Assembly (NCBI RefSeq): GCF_010093815.1
Contig: NW_022985575.1
Coordinates: 124,001 to 188,000 of the forward strand
Source of the DNA: Pseudovirgaria hyperparasitica
Taxonomy: Eukaryota; Ascomycota; Dothideomycetes; Acrospermales; Acrospermaceae
Reading direction: 5' to 3'
Length of the DNA: 64,000 nt
Shown here: piece after piece, positions 3,698-42,591 of the stretch
How positions within the stretch are numbered: the first letter of the stretch is position 1
Layout of the letters: the number at the start of each line of letters is the position of its first letter
The notes under the pieces: model-generated
The model's database searches: none
What the model saw: only the letters and a program-made list of their open reading frames with translations
Told to the model about the DNA's origin: nothing
Program-made: the position numbers and the translations under genes

Positions 3698-4586
3698 TTA
3701 GTCGGAGTCACTACTGGACGATGAGCTGCTGCTGCCTCCTCCGCGACTACGTGAGCGGTGCTTCTTGTGATGGCCATGGCCATGGTGTGCGGCCAGTCCA
3801 CCAAGAGCTGCAGACCCTGCATATCCACTACCGTGGCTGCCATGGGAGTGTTTATGCTTGTGCTCCTTGCCGTGCTTCTTCTTCTTCTTGTGCCTGGGTT
3901 TGTTAGTTGGACACGTTACAGAAAGGGCAGGTGTGCGTACTTGTCATGGCTGTTCTCCAGGACGTTTGCACCTATGGCACCCGCGACAATACCTCCGATG
4001 GTCCCTAGCGCACCACCGCCCAGCTTGTGGCCTGCAAAAGCGCCGAGGGCGCCGCCTCCAAGCGTCGCACCAAGACCGCGCTCGCCATCTTGAGCACCTC
4101 CGGGTCCGTATGCGCCAGGCGCTTGATCTTGATGACCGTAGCCTGGTTGGCCATGTTGTTGCTGGCCATACGGAGGCTGGCCGTGAGGTTGGCCCTGAGG
4201 CGGGTATGGAGAAGGACCACGGTCTTGCTCGTGGTTGTAGGGAGCTACTTGCTGGTGCTGCTGGTAGTCTTGCTGATAGCCCGGCTGCTGAGGTGGATAG
4301 CCTTGTTGCTGGTGCTGCTGATACGAGTCATGCTGTGGAGGATAGCCGCCCTTGGGAAGAAGTCAGCTTTGAGCAACTTGAAGTCATTCAACATAGACAG
4401 ACATACCTGCTGAGGTGGGTAGGGGTTTCCGCCGCCGTATTGATCGTGAGGCGGCTGGTATTGCTGCTGAGGGGCAGGCGAACCATACTGGTTGCCTGGG
4501 TTGTAGCCGTAGTCAGGAGGAGGTTGCTGCTGGTGCTGGCCGTAGCCTCCTCCACCACCTCCACCGTAGTAGTCGTTATTCGACAT
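3698..4586 (-). CDS. Gly/Gln/Pro-rich protein with glycine-zipper segment
   Basis: Three exons: 4407-4586, 3941-4350 and 3698-3893. The introns 4351-4406 (56 nt, GTATGT...AAG) and 3894-3940 (47 nt, GTACGC with a CTAAC branch site and CAG end) join in phase, giving 261 residues. The N-terminal half is low-complexity (Gly7 run, many Tyr-Gly, Pro-Pro-Gln and Gln repeats). The middle is a glycine zipper (LGGGALGAFAGHKLGGGALG followed by GGIVAGAIGANV, about residues 150-190), which can form a paired membrane-embedded hairpin. The tail is a Lys/His-rich stretch, HGHGHH and an octa-serine acidic end (SSSSSSSSDSD). Proteins of this layout are common and unnamed in Pezizomycotina; the zipper suggests membrane association. 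No enzymatic motif is seen. Confidence 0.8.
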
Positions 4587-7500
4587 TGTCTAGAATCTGC
4601 TACACTGGATATGTGTGATGTTGTTCGAAGTGGCCGTCGGTAGGGTGTATAGGTTACAGTGAGAGGATTGATAGAGATACTGGAGCTAGACGAGAGGGAA
4701 TGGTGAGACGGAGCGGGGGGAGGGGTGGCTAGAATAGCTCAGGGCTGAAGTGCTGGGTATATATATATGTATAGCTTACACCGTGGACAGTACACCGATG
4801 GTTTAGTCACGCTACCTGGCTAATTAGCTCATTCACATCCAGGCATGATGAGCTGCGGTGTTTGACGGTTCTGCGGTAAGACGGCAGCCTCAGGCTCTGA
4901 TCGACCTATGACGTGCAGCTGTTCGGGCCACTTTTTGCTGTTTCGGCCACACTCGCCCGAATTTGCGGCGTAGAGTGTGGCTGAGCGGCACTGAGCACAC
5001 GTGTCTTTCGGCTGTGCGCGACGGAGTGAATATACTTGTTATGGTTACTATAGCTATAGTAGTAGTAGTTCGCAACAGCTTTTGCGACCAGACGTAGAAT
5101 AGTCATCCAGTGTGGCAAACAGCATAAACACGTGACTGCAATGTACCTGAAGATCATGACGACCGCACCGCACCGCCTTGGACTGTTGGATACGAGATAC
5201 GAGAGCCCCTCCATGCACGTGATCTCCTCCATCCCGACCGAATTTGAATGTCCCTCCACGACCACTCTCCTAATCATCCAACATACCATCCATCTCGCGA
5301 AGCTCCTACTTATGCATTCAATTCAATGATGCACTCAACACTGACATCACTCATGGCGCTGTCTTAGTAGGATGCAGTCACTAATGAGATACCAAGACCA
5401 TGACACCAGGCACGTATCAGATTTCTGTCAGTCTAATCTAAGCATAACCAGACTCCTACTTCATTGTCTCGAGGTCTCATTAGATCAGCAGGAGCCAGTG
5501 TAGAGCTTCTGAGAAATGATAATATGCTACACAAATTCTCAAGTCCAGCTTGATAGACACCAGACTGCAAACATACCCTTGTCAGAAAACCATCTGACCT
5601 TTTCGGAGACAGGGCGCAAGTTCAAGGAACCTTGAAGTAGAGGAATCGACAGATGGAGAGATTCATGTCTCAGATAGCAAGATTCTCTCATCCTGTAGCA
5701 GTAGAGACACCAATATGTTCCTACGTAAGGAAAGTAGGTATAGTAGAAGTGGGCATAGGTCGGGGAAGTTGTCTTTAAGTGATCTGACGAGGAAGGAGCT
5801 GTCTTCCGCAGTACTATTCCTAAGAAGCTCCTTCCCTATGAGAGTAGTATACACACTACATTCCGTAAGTGTGGGCTATCTACTGAAAGAGCTCTTTATG
5901 GTTACCACGTTAGCCTCTCGCTCGAATCGTGTTATTTCGATATCTGATTCTTTAATACGCTTCAAATGATAGCTGGGCATTAGCATCGAGCTGAAGAGTT
6001 GGATTCTAGCATTGTGTGGATACTCATGACAGTTCGAGGCGTGGATCGAACAGAGCGCATTTTACTAGGGTTTGCGAGAGTATTAAGCGCAATCATGGCT
6101 TGCATCTACAAAACGTATCGGATGTTGTTAGTGGTCATGAGATATGAGTACCAAACCCTTGTCCAATCATCTGGCAATTTAATACCCAGATCCCACAGTG
6201 AAGATGTCCTTGCACGCCGGCAATGAACAACCGTATCGAAAAAGTGGCTTGATCCTAACACTACATTCTGCGCCCATACAGAACCATAGATCTCGTCGTG
6301 ACTGTTACTGTTGTTAGACCCTCGATCAAGCTCGCCACACCGCCATGACAAGTGCGAAGCTATATAAACAATAGACGAGACCCCTCTTATATGTCAACCA
6401 GATCAACGCCCCCAAGACAGCAATCTGACAGCAATAGGATCCCGAGATCCTGCATAATCTAGATCAATTCAGCCGCTATATAAACACTTCGTATCTAGGT
6501 AGAATCTGGGCACTAGGGCGCATGGGAATTCCGGCCGGCCGGGCCCCATGCGTCGTCGATCCGGCCCCATCCATCCACAACGGCAACTCCGAGCCGCAAG
6601 TGGAGTCACTATCACTTTTGGATTGTGTATTTTAACCTTTCACGCCTGACTACTACCACCGAGGGCCAAGACGACAAATGAGAGGCGACTGTATTCCAGA
6701 AGATATGTAGTTCGATTAGAACATTGCGTAACATCATGTCAAGTGGTGTACATATATGTAAATTCGATCGTCCAGCGCCTGCATGAACATGAATGATTCC
6801 GTGATTATAGTCTGCATGTCAAAGTATTTACGTGCAGCTAATAGATCTCGCGAGAGTCGTATGCTGTTCTTGCCCGTGATCCCGTATCCTTCAGATTAGC
6901 CCCTGAGCTAGCACGATTCCGAACTATTGCGTTGTTGACCGGCTGCAGAGTGACAGCGAATCGTACGTAGCTCTGCGTATTACTTTTGGGTTGTCTGATC
7001 ATGTCCAAGCTACACTGCTACAGGTGGATCTCGATTAATGATCGATTAACAAGCAATGCTGATGAGAGGCGGCGGAAGGACGTCCGTCCTACGCGCTGCG
7101 CTCGCGGCTCGTGTACAACTGTTGCCTAGAGCAAACACCAGTAGTGATTGCCCGGAGGGACCAGCAACTGCCAACTCTGCATTACACCCGTGATATTGCA
7201 ATTGTGCTTACAAACCATGTGTTGACATCCATGGATACTATATGAACAGATTCCAAGTTCTGCTACGAGGTTAAGTTAGAGCTACTGTCTGTCATGTTAT
7301 CTAAGAGAAGCCAGCAGGGCGTGGCAGATGGAATTGCGTGCATGCCGCAGTAAAGTAGATCTGTCGTTCTTATCCACGAGTACCATTCTGTTGGCTTTCA
7401 ACGTCTCCGATATCAGTATTGTCATACCTACACTGCCTGTGGAAGCCTCACGTGCCCTCTGTGTACAGCAAGGCTCTACATCAGCTCCAAATGGTCACTC

Positions 7501-32602: not shown

Positions 32603-33580
32603 ATGGCTGACGCACGGAAGATCGTCCTGATTACAGGGTATGGAAAATCTCACAATGCTTTACACAGTTCGCATCTGATGATGGAAGACTAAGACATCAC
32701 ACAGGACTAGCAGCGGTGCCGGGGAAGCTTTGGCTAAGGAATTCTTGTCGAAAGGTATCTATCCATTATTAGAACTCGAGTCAAAGTAATGTTACCAACG
32801 TTGACGAATTCATCAGGCTTTCGCGTCCTAGCCACAGCTCGCAATACAGACTCAATCATACACCTCGCTGACCTCGGCATCGAGACCTTTAGCCTCGAAG
32901 TCCACAAGCCAGCATCTATAAAGTCCCTCAAGTTGCAAGTCGACGCTCTCACCAACGGTCGCCTGGACTACCTTGTCAACAATGCTGGCCGCAACTTGAC
33001 TGTACCCGCACTCCACGTCGACTATGATGAAGTGCAGTACACTTTCGAAACGAACGTTTTCGGTGTCATGCGCATGTGTAGCGAATTTGCGCCCCTGTTG
33101 ATCGCTGCTAAGGGCACGATCGTACAAATCGGCAGTTTAGCCGGCGTAATGCCATACGTGTTTGGCAGTGTATATAACTCTTCGAAAGCGGCGTTGCATG
33201 CATATTCTAACACGTTGCGCGTTGAGCTCGCGCCGTTCGGTGTGCACGTACTTACGATTGTGACGGGAGGCATACAGTCAAATATTGCGCGGACGGAACG
33301 TAGCTTACCTTTGGACTCGATTTACCTGCCGATTGATTCAGACTACCAGCGCAGATTAAAGCACAGTCAGGAGGGAGCTAGTATGCCTGCTAAAGATTAT
33401 GCAAAGAGCGTTGTGAATGCTGCGACACGTAAGAGGGTGCCGCGCTTCCTATGGGAGGGGAACAAGTCATGGCTGGTGTGGTTGCTGTCGACTTTCTTTC
33501 CGACTTGGTTCATGGATTGGTACTTCACGCGGACCTTTGGGCTATGGAAGTTGCATGGAATACATACGAAGACAAATTGA
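32603..33580 (+). CDS. Short-chain dehydrogenase/reductase, AYR1-like
   Basis: Three exons: 32603-32637, 32705-32754 and 32817-33580, encoding 282 residues. It is a classical SDR: NADP-binding GTSSGAG at about residues 12-18 (split by intron 1), NNAG at 83-86, catalytic Ser135, and Tyr148-x3-Lys152 (YNSSK). The C-terminal third (LVWLLSTFFPTWFMDWYF) is hydrophobic and aromatic, as in yeast 1-acyl-dihydroxyacetone-phosphate reductase Ayr1, which sits on lipid droplets and the ER and makes lysophosphatidate. The Ayr1-like role is inferred from this overall shape; many fungal SDRs of the same group act on other lipids or polyketides. It runs convergent with the GH12 gene, 179 bp apart. Confidence 0.85.
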
Positions 33581-33759: not shown

Positions 33760-35069
33760 TCACAATACTGACAACCCTCCCATAAGCAGCATCGCAACGA
33801 AATACCCTGTACCCACCGACAAATATGTCCACAGGCCACTCGCAACTTCCAAGGCCGCTGCTCCGCCGCCCACACTGGTCTGTACTGGCAGCTCTTCAAC
33901 ACTCGTGTCCACAGGACTTGCACCCTCCGCTGGGCTCTTTACATCGGCGTGAAAGCTTTTTACATAGAACTTGACATTCTCTGCGGCGTAAAAAGTTTCA
34001 CTGCCAAACTGAACAGTACCCAGATACGTGTCCCAAGGCATGAAACCATACCTAGGGAGGAAATGCACTAACGGCGTGACATCACCGTAGAATTGCGTAA
34101 GTGGCGCTGTAGTGACCCATGAGAATACGGTCTGTCCGTTGCCGTTTGTGCCTGCATACAGCGTGCTATCGTTGTCGAGTATCAGCAAGAAATCATTCTC
34201 CGCGATGGACTTACAGGACATCGGCATTACTCACAACTCAGCATTCCCAACCGTCTGCACTATGGGCGTAACTCGCGCCTGATCCATACCTATCGGCTCG
34301 CTGGCCCTGCCAAATCGACCTAGCCACACCATGATCTCATAACGTTGCTTCGCCGGTGTCCTACTTCGGTTTGCGTCGGCATCGCAAAAGAGGTCCATAA
34401 CGACATTGGCTTCGATACCGATGGCATCGAGAGCATCAGCATTAGGAGAAGTAGTTGGGTCGTCGGATAAACCTTCAATGAGGGAAGAGGGCTGTTTGGA
34501 GGTATTAGGCTGCTCGTGAATGCGAGTTGAAGGAGGCCGACCTTCATTGCCCACTCAAGGGATAAATCCAGTTGGGAGAGATTCGCAATCGAGACGGGCA
34601 AGACGTCAGAGTTGAGCTGGATGTGCGGGTATGCATGCACTCGTGGTGGACTCGATTGCCACCTCCATTCTGCGATGAAGGCATTGCTTGTGTTGTCCCT
34701 GGATGGCTACAAGATGTCATCATTAGAAGTGGGTCCGGCGCCTCTTTGACATACATATAGACACGTCCAGCCAGATTCGTCCTATGGAGCTCATCAGAAG
34801 TCATACAGGACTGCATTTGGTCGTCCTTCAGAAAAGACATACTTGGTTCCAGGCATTGCTGTTGACTAACAGCTGATCAGCGTGTAGTATCAAGAGCAAA
34901 GTATGAGATGTAATGAGAACCGTTTCTGGTCATACTCACATGTGTAGTTGCCCTGTACACGCGCGTCATCTTTTCCACATAACTGTTGGGGCTGGTTCTG
35001 GGCGTCTACACGCCCGAGCAGCACGCGACATCCCAACAGATAGCTCCAAACGGCCTTGGTGTACCCCAT
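33760..35069 (-). CDS. GH12 endo-beta-glucanase, secreted, probably GPI-anchored
   Basis: Six exons: 34940-35069, 34843-34865, 34755-34781, 34542-34706, 34235-34491 and 33760-34165, making 335 residues with all phases closing. GH12 enzymes cleave beta-1,4 links in cellulose, xyloglucan or mixed-linkage glucan. Family features in order: signal peptide (to about residue 24), LCGKDDARVQGNYTFNSNAWNQ-type start with Cys pairing, EWRWQ, YPHIQLNS, YEIMVWLGRFG with nucleophile Glu167, LYAGTNGNGQTVFSW, and VQFGSETF with acid/base Glu257. A roughly 25-residue insert (about 116-140) precedes the IEANVVMDLF strand. After the catalytic domain come a Ser/Pro/Glu linker and a hydrophobic C-terminus (YFVAMLLMGGLSVL), fitting a GPI signal. 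The donor of intron 34492-34541 is unusual (GTCGGC) but is the only in-phase choice I found. The gene lies next to UDP-glucose dehydrogenase. Confidence 0.85.
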
Positions 35070-36235
35070 ACTGTGCTTTAGCAGTTGGGGGTTCCACGAA
35101 TATGGAAGAACAGAAAACCTCCGCAGAGATTGGAGAAGAGAGAGGCTTTCTATGAAGGTGGTCAGAGAGTGAGATCGTCACCTCCACCGGGCGTTACCTG
35201 CTTCTGTGGGTGGACGATTGGTGCACCATGATAAGAGACGTAGGTGGTATCTATTATGTTGGACGGCAGACATTTTACCGCCGTCAGCTCTCTGGCTACA
35301 CCGTGTGGTATACAGCACGTTGTGCCCCGTGACTAAGTGCGTAGGGTGAGGGCGAAACGTCTTCGATAAACCCAAAGATAAGCTGTCAAGAAGTCCTAAA
35401 ATTGCGCATGCGAATTGACACTATTGCACTAAGAATATATCTGCTTGATGAGCTGGCACGAAAAACGCGAGAGAGCGAGGATGCAGCACTGAATCTCCAG
35501 CCAATGCTATACCGTAATACAGGTGCACTACGGTACTACGGTGCAAGAAGGTCGCGAAGAGAGACCTCCTGGTAAATTTTCCACGCGGGACGTAGCTACG
35601 TTTGACCTGTAAGAGGGCTTGCTACCGGACTCGGGTCACTCGGGTCCAGTGCGAGGATGAATCGCATTCTCTGCGCTTCCAAGTTTACTTATATTGCATA
35701 GACTCGATATAATGCGGAACGTATTACCGTTGGATCACTGGTAGGGATCGACCAGCTGGGTCGGGAGTGGACCAAGTTGTGAACTCATGCACGACTTTAG
35801 GCCCACACTGGAATAGTGGACAATACATACGGAGGTGTTGTAGGGATAATATGATATACCTGAAATCTTCCAGGTGATGGCGACTGCGAGTAGACAGATT
35901 TTATTAGTGGAGATAATGGACGTGTAGCACTGTTAATGCAAGGATTGGGTATCTACAGGGTTGGAAAATTGTGAATTTCAGGAGCCACAGGGGTGACATC
36001 TACTGTGCAGATATTCATCCCTGTAGGGCGAGAATCACATTTATGCAGGTTGTGCCGAGTCTATCGTCCGAACCCTGGTACCTGGGAACGAGTACTACCT
36101 ATCATATTGTTTGCTCCTTACCCCAAAGATGTCGTGACGCGTTTGCCATGAGATAGAGCAGAACCCCCAAAAGTCAAACTATTACGGAATGAAGCAAACA
36201 ACGATTGAAATGCAGGGAAGGAAATCAGCGGTCTC
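35070..36235. other. Intergenic region upstream of GH12
   Basis: 1.2 kb with the GH12 promoter and the 3' UTR of UDP-glucose dehydrogenase. It is more AT-rich toward 35700-36000. No gene recognised. Confidence 0.4.
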
Positions 36236-38275
36236 CTAGCAGACCTCAAACCCTCGCAACCTAGATCTTTTGCCAACTTTGCCGACGCTCTCTACTCGGA
36301 AACCCATGTCTTCCAGGCCCTGTGCATCAAGAACACCACGTGCATCAAACACCCACCTGGGCATTTTCATGCCACGGCCAACTTCCTCCCACTTGAGGTT
36401 CTCACCAGGATAGCTCTTAAGTGCGCCAGGTGCCTTGTTACATTTGGTGCACTCTATATTACATTGAGGCTGGGAGCGAAATAGGGTCTGCTGCGCATTG
36501 AGGTCCCAGTCCTCCGGTAGGACTTGTACCTGGGCCAGACGGGCCAAAGCAGTGTGCACATAGCTCTCGACGGCTGCTGCAGAGCTGTCAGCCTGCGAGA
36601 GTGGTGGGTACCTGAATTGATCCCAATCCGTAAGTATGAGTACGGCGGAGGAGCCTGTGCACGCCGTATATGGGTCTGCGTGAACATTGATGGGCCCTTC
36701 TGGGGCAATGATGCCGCTTCCAGCTGCACCAAATAAGGCTTGAAGTTCTGTACATATGTCGGCAGGTGTACATCCAGGATCGTAGATAGCAATCTCCGCG
36801 GGTCTTTCCCGAAGTAGATGTTCAATGACCGAGATCGATTGTGATTCTCGAGTATCGGACGTATCTTTTTTGAAAGCATAGCCAAGTATAGCCAGCTTCT
36901 TACCGGTTAACGAACCATTGAGTGACTTGATGACTGTGACACAGGTAAGCTGATGCAGTGCCTCTCATCTTAGCGGGCGTTTACCTCGTTTGACCAAGCG
37001 TTCACATTGCCAAACATTGATATCCACGACAGACTTCCAGTATGCAGCCACCTCTGGCAGGTCAAGTGACTCAGCAAGGTATGACAAGCTTAGGATGTCT
37101 TTCTTGAAACACGATCCACCAAAACCCAAACCTGCGTGGAGGAATTTAGCACCAATGCGGTGATCCATTCCAATGGCACTAGCAATATCCGAGACGTCTG
37201 CCCCTGTCTTCTCGCATATCGCACTGACGGTATTGATGCTGCTAATCCTCTGTGCTAGCATGGCGTTCGCCACGAGCTTGGCAAGCTCTGATGACCAAAG
37301 GTGAACATTAAGGATCGACGCCTCGGGAACCCACGCATTATAGACTAGAGCTAGTCTGGCAGCGGCAGTAAGACCAGACGAGGTGTTACTTGAGCCTATC
37401 AGGACTCTTGATGGGTGTAGTAGGTCAGAGATAGCTGTACCCTCGGCGAGGAACTCCGGATTGGACAGAATCTCAAATGGTACCCCTGGGCGGTGGATAT
37501 CAAGCTTCAAATTTTATTAATGGCATGGTCAGAGGGCGAATTTGGGTTGCTTACAATATCTCTGATGACTTGGGCAGTCCTGCAAGGAACGGTACTCTTC
37601 TCAACAATGATGGCACCGGGTTTGGCTACCACAGCAATGGATCTCATAGCTGATTCAAAGATCGAAATATTGGTTGCTGCCCCAGCCCCCACACCGACCA
37701 ATTTCGTTGGCGTATTGACACTCAGGAAAATGATGTCCGCTTCACCAATTGGTTGTTCGCAGTCCGTAGAAAAGAAGAGATTTGGTGTACGCTCAGGAAA
37801 AGCCACACTTTCCTTGGCACTGCCACGTGCAAGGATTGTGGCATTTGTACCATCTCGCGCAACTCGTACAATGTCGTCCAATCCTGGTTCATGGATTGGT
37901 AAATGCTTAGACTGCCATCTGCTTATTCTTGAACTGTCCCTGTCGACCACGGTAACTTGAATTTGTGGATTGGAAAATGCCAGAACTGCAGCCGTTGGCC
38001 CACCTACATTCATAGTTAGTATTGTCATATGTGAGCTGAACTGTCTACTAACCTACGTATCCAGCACCAACAAAGCATATCTTGGTGACAGGGTCAAAAT
38101 CTGCCGCCCGAGCTCGAATTGGCCCACCAGATTCCGTCGATATTTTGGGTGACGCATTGTCGTCAGAGCCAGAGATCGATGTTGAGCTCGAAGTACGAGA
38201 CAAAGTAGGAGAGATCGAAGGCGACGCAGTCCCTGACTGTGAACAAGGTGTGGATGTACTGGACAAAGCGGACAT
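36236..38275 (-). CDS. UDP-glucose 6-dehydrogenase (UGDH)
   Basis: Four exons: 38053-38275, 37555-38003, 36985-37504 and 36236-36933, total 629 residues with exact phases. It oxidises UDP-glucose to UDP-glucuronate with two NAD. Seen in order: a roughly 60-residue Ser/Thr-rich extension, NAD-binding FVGAGYVGG (about residues 70-78, split by intron 1), the SVNTPTK and EKSTVP strands, [14 protein letters not shown], catalytic Cys356 in [10 protein letters not shown], then the C-terminal UDP-binding domain ([41 protein letters not shown]). A Cys-containing insert ([11 protein letters not shown]) lies within that domain. The first ATG is at 38275; the frame is open upstream but only from a GTG. 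It diverges from the glycosyltransferase at 39997. A GDP-mannose dehydrogenase is less likely, given the fungal UGDH-type length and C-terminus. Confidence 0.9.
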
Positions 38276-39996
38276 TTTGCCAGAATCTGACACAGGACCT
38301 GTAAGTACAATAAGAACAAAGTCCCTGTGATTGAACGATCTAGACAAAGGATATGCTGATTCAATTCCCAGGAGAAAGAAAGATTCGGAGCACTTCTTTA
38401 AATCTTGTAGGAGAATACAGTGCGCGGAGTCACCATTTGGATGAGCGTCTTGAGCGCTGTCACAAGCTATATGCCGCGAGATTGTACAAAGTCGAGCAGT
38501 GGCACCTAGTCTAGGCCACGCTCTATGGCTTTGTGGCAGAGGCGCCCGAGGCGGGATCACAAAGCGCAGAGTGATTCTCGCTTGGGCTGAGATGCTACAG
38601 ACTTACAGTGGCGAAAGCAATAGACTTCCAGTATACGTTGTAAAATGCTAGTCCTAGTGTTCCAATATGCAGTCTAGCGGACAGGGGCACCAAAGCCTCG
38701 CGAGAGCTGTGAGAGCTAATGCCGTTGATAAATCAAGGTATTAAAGCCTTTGAGCCAGGTGAGAGAGATCTGTGCATAGAGAAAGGAATTATATGCGGGC
38801 CAAGAGAGAACGATAAGGGAGTTGTAACATGTGTATTGACGACAAGGAAGGGCCAGAGCCGGTGGGGAAAAGGGAACAGGACAAAAAGTTACTGTTGATC
38901 AGGGTCCCATGCAGTCCGACTAGGTATGAAATGGCACCCTGCAGAAGATCTGCAGTCAATGAATGTCAAGATCGAATCTCGGTGCCGTAAGTAGTCTGAA
39001 CCCGCACACAGACCAGACACGAGAACATTATTCTGCAAGAGCCATTCGGCGTCCATCGCAGCGCCCATGAGGTCGGAAACAAGCCATGCAGCACGATCCC
39101 GAGTCGGAAGACGGTGATACGATGTCCCAGAGACCAATGTCCGTCACTTGAGTACACGGATGGCAGAAAGGCGCCTACTGTGCTCTCGAAGGGCGACAGG
39201 TAGGAAGCTTTGATAGCCTGATGCTCGTTATACGGCATCTAGGTCGGCAGGTCGATTGAGTTGGTACCGAAGCGACGCGTCAGTCGTCTTACTGATTGTA
39301 TTGTAGAGGTCTTTGAAGGTTGTGAATAGACTCGATGAGAGATGATAAGGAGTTGTTGAGATAAATTATAATGGGTCGACAGAAGCTACGTAAGTACTAG
39401 TTCCGATATTCCTGCACTATTCCAATATAGGCAAAGTCTGGATCGAAGCGGTTCTCGGCACGGCCCGCTGAAATATCGCCTATGCGCGTTCACCGTTGCA
39501 AAATCACAATATCACCACCCCTTCAATGATTCACTCTTAGGCGTGCCATGTCGCGTCATCGCCTTTATAGCCATAATAGAGCCACCCATGTTCCCCCTGT
39601 AAACTACCACGTGTGAGTGTTCGTGGAAAGCAAGTATGAAATCCCAGGCTACCGGTTTATCGGTCAATGGCTCGATGCAAGAGGCATCGCAGGTCGCCAC
39701 AATGCCACGCCCTGGGCTGAGCTTAGGCCTATCATTTCATTCGTCCTACCTGAGGAACAGGGTATACTCCCGAAGTGCACAGAAGATACCACGAGAAGCC
39801 TGCATATAGCATCCAGTGGGTTTTGTCGATATGGGGGTTGATATTCCAAGACGTTGCGCAGAAGCTGTGTCTAGGGCCGCCACAACAGCGCTGCAGAGGA
39901 CACTAAAACGACAGAAAAGTTCCGAAAGTCAACAGTGGATAGATCATTGTTGGTACAAAGTCTCGACTTCTCCGACTTCCTCCAACCCGACTGAGA
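38276..39996. promoter_or_regulatory. Divergent promoter region of UGDH and GT2
   Basis: 1.7 kb between two start codons pointing apart. Several short frames occur on both strands (for example minus strand 38889-39238), with no domain or splice support. An in-frame stop at 39940-39942 fixes 39997 as the first methionine of the glycosyltransferase frame. Confidence 0.5.
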
Positions 39997-42591
39997 ATGG
40001 CCCATCGGTCCCCGCCCGTCCACCGAACAAATATGACTTTCAGTGCGCATCAAGACCATGCGATCGCACATGTGGTAACTCGTCAGGATATCTCCAGGCG
40101 ACTTGCAGCACAGTCTTCAAATGAAGATTCTGGACTTGATGCCAATTTGCTCCAAACTCAACTTCGAGCTACAGAAGAAGGCCAAGGGTTGAAAGACATA
40201 GGCGTTCGGCGACATGCAAGTCTGACATCCAACCCTGTCAGCAACAATAGCAGTACACCTGAGCTAGTCTACGGGATCAGAACACCTTCAGATGATGGCA
40301 GTGTGAGTAATGGACCGTTCGATTCCCACGCGATAAATGCTGACGGCTCACGATCAGACATCACATATCCCTGGTGAATTCCATGCTAGCTTAAGGACTG
40401 GTCTGAGACAAGCACTAGATACACAGGATTCGAAACAGCTCCGAGCGTTTCCTAGGATACGTTACCCAAACGATCTCTCCGGGCGTGCCAGTGCCACGCC
40501 TAGCTATGACTCGCTCCAAATCCGTGTGCCCATATCGGCTTCAGAGCACTATGCGTTTCGCACTGTTAGCATCGTTGAGCGATCTGCATCCGCAAGGACG
40601 ACTCCAGATATCACAGAAGTTTACGAGGAATCGGAATCGGACGATAGATACATCCACCGTCATGTCACACGATCTCGAAGCTTCACCTCCCTCCCACGGC
40701 CCGCCCCTGCCCACCTCAGTCGTAGAAGTTCGTTGCCCGGCCTGACACGTAGTGCGAACGATGTATACACTATGTTCACTATCAAGACTCCGAGTCGGAC
40801 GCTTATTCGACCTTGTGTCGGTATACCTTTCTCCAATAAGCACTACCAGCAGGAGTCAGCACACGATGATATCGAAGCTAGTGCAACGGCGAATGCTGTA
40901 GCAGTCGAAAAGCAGGAGGAATATCCTTCTGCTGAAGGGAAGAAGACCACGCCAAACATCTTTCGACGCGCTAGGAATAACTTGATTGCTACGTACGCCC
41001 CTCGAGTGCCACCCCCTTTAATACTACCGAGCGGGCCAACCGACGTAGAGAAAGTCTCATATCTCAAGACGAACCGCCTCTTCTTGTACACGTTTGGATG
41101 TCTTTCTTTTCTCAGCTTGTCAGCTGGTATGTGGTTGTTCGTCGTCTCTTCGATTCCATTCTACTGGTTTGGTCTTATGGTCGTGCTGCTCCAATGCTAT
41201 CTCTTTGTCTCATATGCAGTTTCGATCTGTGGTAAAGATTGGGACTACGAGGCACACAAAAAGACACTAGAAGATCATCCAGTCACTCCAGAGACAGCAC
41301 CGACAGTCGACATTTATCTTCCGTGTTGTAAAGAGCCAATTGAGGTACTCGAAAACACATATAAGCATGTCACAGAGCTCATCTACCCACCCGATAAGCT
41401 GAAAGTGTATGTACTCGATGATGGGGCAGACGAGGCGGTCAAGACCCTAGCAGAGCAGTACGGCTTCACCTATATTCTGAGAGATGATAGACCGCGGCTA
41501 AAGAAAGCTGGGAATTTACGATGGGCTTTTGCTCGGACATCTGGCGACTTCTTCAATATTTATGATGCCGTAAGTAACATGGGATCTTACTAGCACATCA
41601 TTGGACCTCAACTGATATATTCCAGGACTTTTGCCCTCGGCCTGACTTCCTCATGGAGATCATCCCTGAACATATAGCCAATCCACGAGCAGCAATCATC
41701 CAGACACCTCAGTTCTTTCGCATCAAAGACGAGCAGACTTGGGTCGAGCAAGGTGCAGGTGCTGTACAGGAACTCTTCTACCGCGTCATCCAAGTCAATC
41801 GCAACCGCTTCGGTGCATCAATTTGTGTCGGATCCAACGCCGTTTACAGACGCCAAGCCCTCGTTGAAGTCGGCGGTACGGCCGAAATTGGGTTCTCGGA
41901 GGATGTACACACCGGATTCTACGCTTTGACACGCGGATGGCAGGTCAAGTACGTTCCTTTATGCCTGGCCTGTGGTATTTGCCCGGATACGCCGCGTGCA
42001 TTCTTCAGCCAGCAGATGCGATGGTGTATGGGTAGCACGACGCTGCTTACGAACCCAGACTTCTGGACGTCGCCGTTGAGTTTGATGCAGAAGATCTGCT
42101 ATTTGTCAGGTATGATGTACTACAGCGCCATTTCGTTGTCTATCTTCCTGAATCCGCTACCGGGTATCCTCATGATATGGGTACGGCCCGAGTATGTCCG
42201 GTACTACAATCTTGCTTTTGCCGTACCTAGTATTCTGTACTCGCTGCTTGCAATTCGAGTATGGGCAAAGGCATCATACGGACTGAATGTCCAGTTCGTC
42301 ATGATGATTCAGTCCTTTGCATACTTCACCGCTATCAAAGACCGACTATTCGGGAGAGCGTTGGCTTGGGTGCCTAGTGGCGACACCAAGGCTCACAAGA
42401 ATAACAAGTACAGAAATATGCGTATCATGGCGTGGGTGTGGATGTGCAGTGCGAGCGGAGCGCTGATTGCCGGGACGACATATCAAGTGCTGCGTGGCAT
42501 GAAGTGGTATGATTGTTTCCCCGTGTTGTGTTTGACGGCCTTTAACTTCTTTCTGGCGCATCGTTTTCTGCTTTGTCATGGAAAGCTGTGA
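39997..42591 (+). CDS. Cellulose-synthase-like family 2 glycosyltransferase, polytopic membrane protein
   Basis: Three exons: 39997-40302, 40358-41569 and 41626-42591, giving 827 residues; all phases are zero and close. About 300 residues of Ser/Arg-rich cytosolic N-terminus come first, then two membrane spans (LFLYTFGCLSFLSLSAGMWL onward), the GT-A catalytic domain and at least four C-terminal spans. The processive-synthase signature is complete: Asp-Asp-Gly (456-458), KKAGNLRWA, DAD (505-507, spanning intron 2), the acceptor-site SEDVHTG (Asp599) and QQMRW (635-639). This matches bacterial BcsA, plant CesA and fungal CelA/Tft1-type mixed-linkage glucan synthases, and more distantly hyaluronan-type synthases. 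It should polymerise a UDP-sugar and extrude the chain through the plasma membrane. The product is not determined by sequence alone. Confidence 0.9.

Follow-up and report, generated by a model that had tools for sequence, protein, structure and literature searches.

The GH12-UGDH-GT2 locus

The window analysed here is a stretch of 64,000 nucleotides from the ascomycete Pseudovirgaria hyperparasitica, covering positions 124001-188000 of contig C27 (191,731 bases) in an assembly of 35.03 Mb and 59 contigs. Positions 33760-42591 of the window hold three intact, intron-containing genes without any frameshift, which encode a glycoside hydrolase family 12 (GH12) endo-beta-glucanase, a UDP-glucose 6-dehydrogenase (UGDH) and a processive family 2 glycosyltransferase (GT2). 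An original prediction for this DNA had named the same three consecutive genes, and our models, hand-built from sequence alone (Table 1), bear it out, with all three proteins scoring above the cut-offs of their Pfam families. The ten introns measure 48 to 74 bases each. One of them, a 50-base intron in GH12, has the weak donor GTCGGC and is supported because the spliced protein aligns without a gap at this point to a second copy on contig C2, described below. UGDH and GT2 are divergent, as had been predicted, with 1,721 bases between their start codons.

Table 1. Coordinates, within the window, of the three genes, their exons and the intergenic region.
Feature	Position	Strand	Remarks
GH12 endo-beta-glucanase gene	33760..35069	-	six exons, 335 aa; Pfam, solved-structure search, hydropathy
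GH12 exons	35069-34940, 34865-34843, 34781-34755, 34706-34542, 34491-34235, 34165-33760	-
UDP-glucose 6-dehydrogenase gene	36236..38275	-	four exons, 629 aa; Ser/Thr-rich N-terminus, GFGGSCF motif
UGDH exons	38275-38053, 38003-37555, 37504-36985, 36933-36236	-
Intergenic region between UGDH and GT2 start codons, divergent	38276..39996		possible shared promoter, without motif support
Processive GT2 gene	39997..42591	+	three exons, 827 aa
GT2 exons	39997-40302, 40358-41569, 41626-42591	+

The GT2 protein (PF13632, 74 bits) begins with about 310 poorly conserved residues, which are followed by two transmembrane-like segments, the catalytic domain and further transmembrane-like segments. The set of motifs credited to it in the original prediction is complete: DDG, DAD, SED and QQMRW are all found, giving the D, D, D, QxxRW core of a processive synthase. 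Among solved structures the best match of the core is BcsA (E 7e-36); CesA3 is matched weakly (E 7e-4), and no CslF6 row appears at E 0.001. The Pfam model Cellulose_synt scores 19 bits, below its cut-off of 24.7. Pfam searches gave no PilZ row for the window GT2 (E 0.001) or for its C2 counterpart (E 1). A six-frame search of the genome with PF03552 (Cellulose_synt) returned no match at E 0.001 and therefore did not tell the GT2s apart.

UGDH contains three Pfam domains, at 158.6, 106.6 and 71.2 bits, all above cut-off. Its best solved structures are UGDHs of the animal type (E 2e-135), the next kind following at 3e-63, and the catalytic Cys motif, GFGGSCF, is in place. The GH12 domain is full, spanning profile positions 2-206 of 207 at 77.1 bits (cut-off 27), and its best solved-structure match is to GH12 endoglucanases (E 5e-19). 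Its motifs YEIMVW and QFGSETF, which carry the two catalytic glutamates of the family, line up with YELMIW and QFGTEPF in structure 5gm3. By hydropathy, the best 15-residue stretch scores 1.91 near the C-terminal end, against 1.17 for the N-terminal one. The hydrophobic C-terminal tail is a plausible candidate for a glycosylphosphatidylinositol (GPI) or membrane anchor, and the N-terminus is weakly signal-peptide-like, with moderate hydrophobicity only. As for the secreted, GPI-type glucanase that had been proposed, the tail stands as plausible on hydropathy rather than as the result of a GPI program.

A second trio on contig C2

A search of the whole 35-Mb genome finds two close members of the window type of GT2. 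The second lies on contig C2 (L022); the matches that follow this pair are a gene on contig C9, 27% identical over about 216 residues, and one on contig C6, at 42% over 81 residues and 32% over 69. Like the window gene, the C2 GT2 is grouped with UGDH and GH12, and it is this recurrence that argues against an accidental linkage. The genome contains four GH12 matches, and UGDH at three loci; from these numbers, the odds that one GT2 would by chance belong to such a trio within about 17 kb come to roughly 3e-6.

The gene order is UGDH, GT2, GH12 on one strand at C2, as opposed to GH12 and UGDH facing away from GT2 in the window. When open frames of at least 40 aa were compared between the window, extended by 13.7 kb of contig sequence, and 30 kb around the C2 copy, no match at E 1e-4 was found outside the three trio genes and their shadow frames. 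At the protein level the GT2 cores of the two copies are 66% identical, the UGDHs 65.5% once the N-terminus is set aside, and the GH12s 47.9% across the stretch in which they overlap; synonymous sites have reached saturation (pS 0.77-0.86). Three introns, the first two of UGDH and the final one of GH12, occupy matching positions in both trios; the other introns are private. We take the split between the two trios to be ancient, whether it arose by duplication or by transfer from one fungus to another, since synonymous sites are saturated, order and orientation differ and some introns are private; their linkage would have been kept despite the reshuffling. The trio GH12s also share the hydrophobic C-terminal tail and an insertion, both of which are missing from the GH12 on contig C10 (the C8 GH12 lies outside the alignment).

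The C2 GH12 (L022:636-1568) starts 257 bases after the GT2 stop and aligns to the window GH12 only from about residue 55, its best Pfam stretch beginning at profile position 81. With the first 75 residues of the window protein as query, no N-terminal exon was found over 30 kb (best E 0.73). This gene looks 5'-truncated, with roughly the first 55 residues missing, and is likely a decaying copy. Judged from the models, the window trio is the more complete one, because its GH12 covers the profile in full, the C2 GH12 is truncated and the window GT2 has the shorter branch (0.16 versus 0.37 in the 30-row tree described below).

The third UGDH locus, on contig C20 (L024:4508-8730), adjoins a GT4 glycosyltransferase gene. 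By segment, the trio UGDHs are 70, 80 and 47% identical to each other; for the window UGDH against C20 the values are 47, 64 and 34%. Elsewhere in the genome the epimerase/dehydratase family PF16363 has 21 matches, the two strongest of which rank other enzymes above UDP-glucuronate decarboxylase. A xyloglucan-like product made by way of UDP-xylose was set aside on this ground; with two of the 21 matches compared, UDP-xylose as the end product is argued against weakly.

Several features surround the window trio. A short-chain dehydrogenase gene adjoins GH12 at 32738-33580 and is not common to the C2 trio region. Downstream of GT2 (42600-64000) the DNA becomes AT-rich, its GC content falling as low as 26%, and bears an extreme signature of the repeat-induced point mutation (RIP) type. 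From 50 kb on, TA/AT is 1.6-1.8 and (CA+TG)/(AC+GT) about 0.1; between 42 and 50 kb the signature is weaker, and it is missing at 46-48 kb, the site of a 576-aa open frame. The trio, itself without a RIP signature, borders a RIP-type block near the contig end.

Bacterial relatives of the synthase

In a plasmid collection, the best 20 of 825 records are led by two from Leptolyngbya boryana, with 41% identity over 89% of the GT2 core, the other 18 being at most 33.0% identical. The Leptolyngbya gene (L060:11992-13503, on the 78-kb plasmid pLBA; WP_017286867) is the closest bacterial relative among the matches listed. No annotated neighbour in L060 is named UGDH or glycanase, most being hypothetical, and phmmer searches for UGDH and GH12 found none there. 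The synthase of Galbitalea soli is 34% identical over near-full length. An even draw of 296 genomes was made from the class of Galbitalea, Actinobacteria, and 29 of them have a synthase match at 1e-60. Twenty of these 29, each represented by a single copy, entered a 30-row tree and the neighbourhood survey below; the nine genomes left out are G201 and G227, with full-length matches, and seven with weaker, partial ones, and second copies in G088, G098 and G194 were likewise left out. Among viral contigs, 22 pattern matches included no relative of the GT2.

Rooted on four BcsA-type rows, the 30-row tree places the two fungal GT2s inside the bacterial clade (support 100/99) and next to Leptolyngbya (96/96), the latter with one cyanobacterial and two fungal rows; the program warned of long branches for the CelA-like rows. 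In a 15-row tree, which omits F_C3, Strep_L065, Actmyc_L064 and Strep_L061, the clade of Leptolyngbya, actinobacterial and fungal sequences receives 100/100 and is apart from both the BcsA-type and the CelA-type rows. Two of the bacterial relatives (only bacterial sequences were scored) reach 198 and 189 bits against the cut-off of 699 of the NCBIfam CelA/BcsA model. The original prediction had proposed a tree of the synthase with CelA/Tft1, the cellulose-synthase-like enzyme of Aspergillus, BcsA and hyaluronan-type synthases. The comparison with CelA/Tft1 is not supported: with C9 and C6 as the CelA-like rows, the window GT2 falls inside the Leptolyngbya/actinobacterial clade, apart from CelA-like and BcsA-type rows alike.

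One region of at most 19 kb around the relative was taken from each of the 20 actinobacterial genomes (L118-L137; 366 kb in total), and expected counts were derived from a total genome size of 136.8 Mb (rounded sizes). Pfam finds GH26 in 13 of the 20 regions, versus 0.17 genes expected (63 matches in 136.8 Mb); phmmer also gives 13, differing at one locus each way (Pfam alone reports L128, phmmer alone L132). With GH16 in L122 and L137 (phmmer), a GH26 or GH16 glycanase is present in 15 regions. An AT3-SGNH-like acyltransferase occurs in ten (phmmer). Pfam confirms the GH16 gene of L122, and for the acyltransferase the loci L119 and L122. Nucleotide-sugar dehydrogenases lie in four regions (L119, L122, L130 and L131), versus 0.16 expected from PF00984 (60 matches in 136.8 Mb). 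All four pass the general nucleotide-sugar dehydrogenase model, and their best equivalog is UGDH (TuaD or AglM), below its cut-off. The second Galbitalea locus (L122) has a GH16 glucanase, GT2, acyltransferase and dehydrogenase side by side. Some regions are close kin (L119/L120, L130/L131 and L133/L135/L136), so independent events are fewer than region counts, about three for the dehydrogenase.

Because the bacterial glycanases belong to families other than GH12, and the UGDH of the fungus is animal-like, the fungal set looks to have been assembled independently around a related synthase. The recurrence of actinobacterial synthases (L079, L118-L137) beside GH26/GH16 glycanases and AT3-SGNH acyltransferases suggests, for its part, a pathway for an acylated beta-glycan.

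A candidate acidic-glucan pathway and its alternatives

These genes resemble a known kind of system, in which a processive synthase is accompanied by an enzyme that supplies its precursor and by a glycanase that trims the product. On balance, we lean slightly towards reading GH12, UGDH and GT2 as a make-acidify-trim unit for a glucuronate-containing, beta-1,4-type glucan at the fungal surface. In such a joint pathway, UDP-glucuronic acid would be formed in the cytosol through oxidation of UDP-glucose by UGDH. The GT2, in the membrane, would polymerise UDP-glucose, and probably also UDP-glucuronate, at the cytosolic face, and would pass the growing chain through its own membrane pore. A secreted, tail-anchored GH12 would then cut beta-1,4-glucosidic bonds at the cell surface, governing chain length or release. 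BcsA follows the same logic of polymerisation at the cytosolic face and export via its own pore, and the pneumococcal type 3 capsule synthase uses two UDP donors. That the GT2 uses UDP-glucuronate is the favoured reading, since a UGDH has been retained in each trio despite the further one at C20. The make-and-trim logic and the glucuronate option that had been proposed are both strengthened by the doubled trio and by the linkage of bacterial relatives to endo-glycanases and, in 4 of 20 regions, dehydrogenases. A joint role of the three genes has good support; the presence of glucuronate in the polymer we infer. No description of a GH12-UGDH-GT2 trio was found in the open-licence literature, covered mostly at title and abstract level.

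A different identity for the synthase would follow from CelA/Tft1, which PMC4344333 and PMC5519750 present as the described cellulose-synthase-like GT2 of Aspergillus. The locus would then be the known one for mixed-linkage glucan synthesis, and UGDH and GH12 would be its neighbours; the sub-threshold Cellulose_synt and weak CesA3 matches of the window GT2 are in keeping with this. Two primers said to lie inside A. fumigatus Tft1 are printed in PMC4344333. In the frame chosen by fit they translate to KPHHFKA and (reversed) EPLQFG, about 13 residues in all and not the full-length protein. At the corresponding places the C9 gene carries PHHYKAGN and HEFLQIG and the window gene RPRLKKAGN and PLCLACG, so that the primer-derived residues fit C9, not the window GT2. 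C9 further has plant CslF6 (E 8e-4) and CesA chains among its matches, ranked after BcsA, unlike the window core, for which no CslF6 row appears at E 0.001; in both trees C9 and C6 are separated from the two trio GT2s; and the one celA neighbour named in PMC5519750 is a DUF3431 gene. Because the primer-derived residues fit C9 and the trees separate the two types, the window synthase is probably not CelA/Tft1. That identity, taken as a starting assumption, was dropped on these two grounds, and the comparison drawn in the original prediction falls with it; we regard the CelA/Tft1 locus as a very improbable explanation. The celA quantitative PCR primers of PMC7140844, searched genome-wide allowing at most 3 mismatches, hit one place (equal to the control) and six places, none at the GT2 loci discussed here, and did not discriminate. 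The genome has two CelA-like GT2 genes (L050 ~4841-6427 and L051 ~3994-5781, rough models), about 30% identical to each other, and one or both are likely Tft1/CelA relatives. PMC5653360 describes another fungal enzyme, ZtGT2, as an ortholog of Cryptococcus CPS1.

The GT2 might instead make a neutral glucan, plain beta-1,4 or mixed-linkage, that GH12 trims, while UGDH serves other enzymes or balances the UDP-glucose pool. Cellulose synthases are indeed the best solved-structure match of the GT2, and its bacterial relatives lie mostly beside GH26/GH16 (15 of 20), with no dehydrogenase nearby in 16 of 20. We nevertheless consider this unlikely, though it keeps real weight: the trio UGDHs are closer to each other than to the third UGDH and are GT2-linked in both copies, and the dehydrogenase is also enriched near the bacterial relatives. 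An old segmental duplication could also have left the three genes linked without any joint function, since two trios in one genome could derive from one block, and the truncated look of the C2 GH12 agrees with that. Gene content was kept through changes of order and orientation, however, no further shared gene was detected in the compared flanks, and bacteria show parallel GT2-glycanase and GT2-dehydrogenase linkage; a purely historical linkage thus appears improbable.

Returning to the make-acidify-trim unit, several points weigh against it. With GH12 truncated at C2, trimming would be dispensable there or lost, and a single old block duplication could account for the doubled linkage without continuing selection. 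Words of 9 to 12 bases shared between the window and C2 promoters show no excess over chance, which leaves co-regulation through the divergent promoter without backing. The regions lacking a dehydrogenase include L120, a near-copy of L119, and because they make up 16 of the 20, the synthase type does not need a UGDH nearby everywhere. The lack of a UDP-glucuronate decarboxylase rests on two of 21 PF16363 matches, and we know of no GH12 action on glucuronate-rich chains.

More tentatively still, and with somewhat less confidence than in the unit itself, we suggest that filamentous fungi may possess a second, bacterial-type cellulose-synthase-like lineage, which is distinct from CelA/Tft1 and has a relative on a cyanobacterial plasmid. 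Around it a eukaryotic UGDH and an anchored GH12 would have gathered to make and trim an undescribed acidic, cellobiuronan-like wall or matrix polymer, and bacteria would have done the same with unrelated GH26/GH16 glycanases and their own dehydrogenases. If so, ascomycete walls would contain an acidic glucan from a dedicated three-gene unit, and the uronic acid of fungal walls, so far poorly explained, would become accessible to genetics. Such a finding would also caution against naming every cellulose-synthase-like fungal GT2 CelA, and would place a likely self-directed, surface-anchored GH12 in a family usually read as plant-wall degraders.

Among fungal systems, CelA/Tft1 (A. nidulans AN8444, A. 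fumigatus Afu3g03620; (1,3;1,4)-beta-glucan) shares with the window gene the nature of a membrane cellulose-synthase-like GT2. It differs by lineage, the window GT2 being 23-27% identical over about 228 residues to the CelA-like C9, which stands in for Tft1. PMC4059230, which cites Fontaine 2009, describes for Wangiella and Aspergillus a UGD-GT1 pair for an acidic glycolipid, reported from many Eurotiomycetes and Sordariomycetes but from a single Dothideomycete. There too a UGDH stands beside a glycosyltransferase in filamentous ascomycetes, an arrangement resembling the C20 UGDH-GT4 pair of this genome. In contrast to the trio, that pair has a GT4-type enzyme, a lipid product and a different UGDH paralog, with no GH12 reported. 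The CHSL-UNGD cluster of Wangiella, Fusarium and algal viruses (PMC4059230) likewise joins a GT2 to a nucleotide-sugar dehydrogenase, but the GT2 is chitin-synthase-like, the dehydrogenase acts on UDP-GlcNAc and a polysaccharide deacetylase takes, in some species, the place of the glucanase.

The short GT2s of the Leptolyngbya plasmid and of Actinobacteria are in the same clade as the window GT2, are 33-41% identical to it over most of the core (Leptolyngbya and Galbitalea) and share KKAGN, ADF.PRPDFL and QQ.RW with it. The actinobacterial ones differ in being often linked to GH26, GH16 and acyltransferase genes, not GH12. BcsA resembles the window GT2 in DDG, DAD, ED and QxxRW and supplies its best solved relatives; the window GT2 differs in having no PilZ match and an adjoining UGDH, and is 30-32% identical to Cereibacter BcsA over part of its length. 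An endoglucanase is found near the synthase in bcs operons as well, there the GH8 enzyme BcsZ rather than GH12. Finally, the pneumococcal type 3 capsule locus sets one processive GT2 beside a UGDH, with both sugars supplied as UDP donors.

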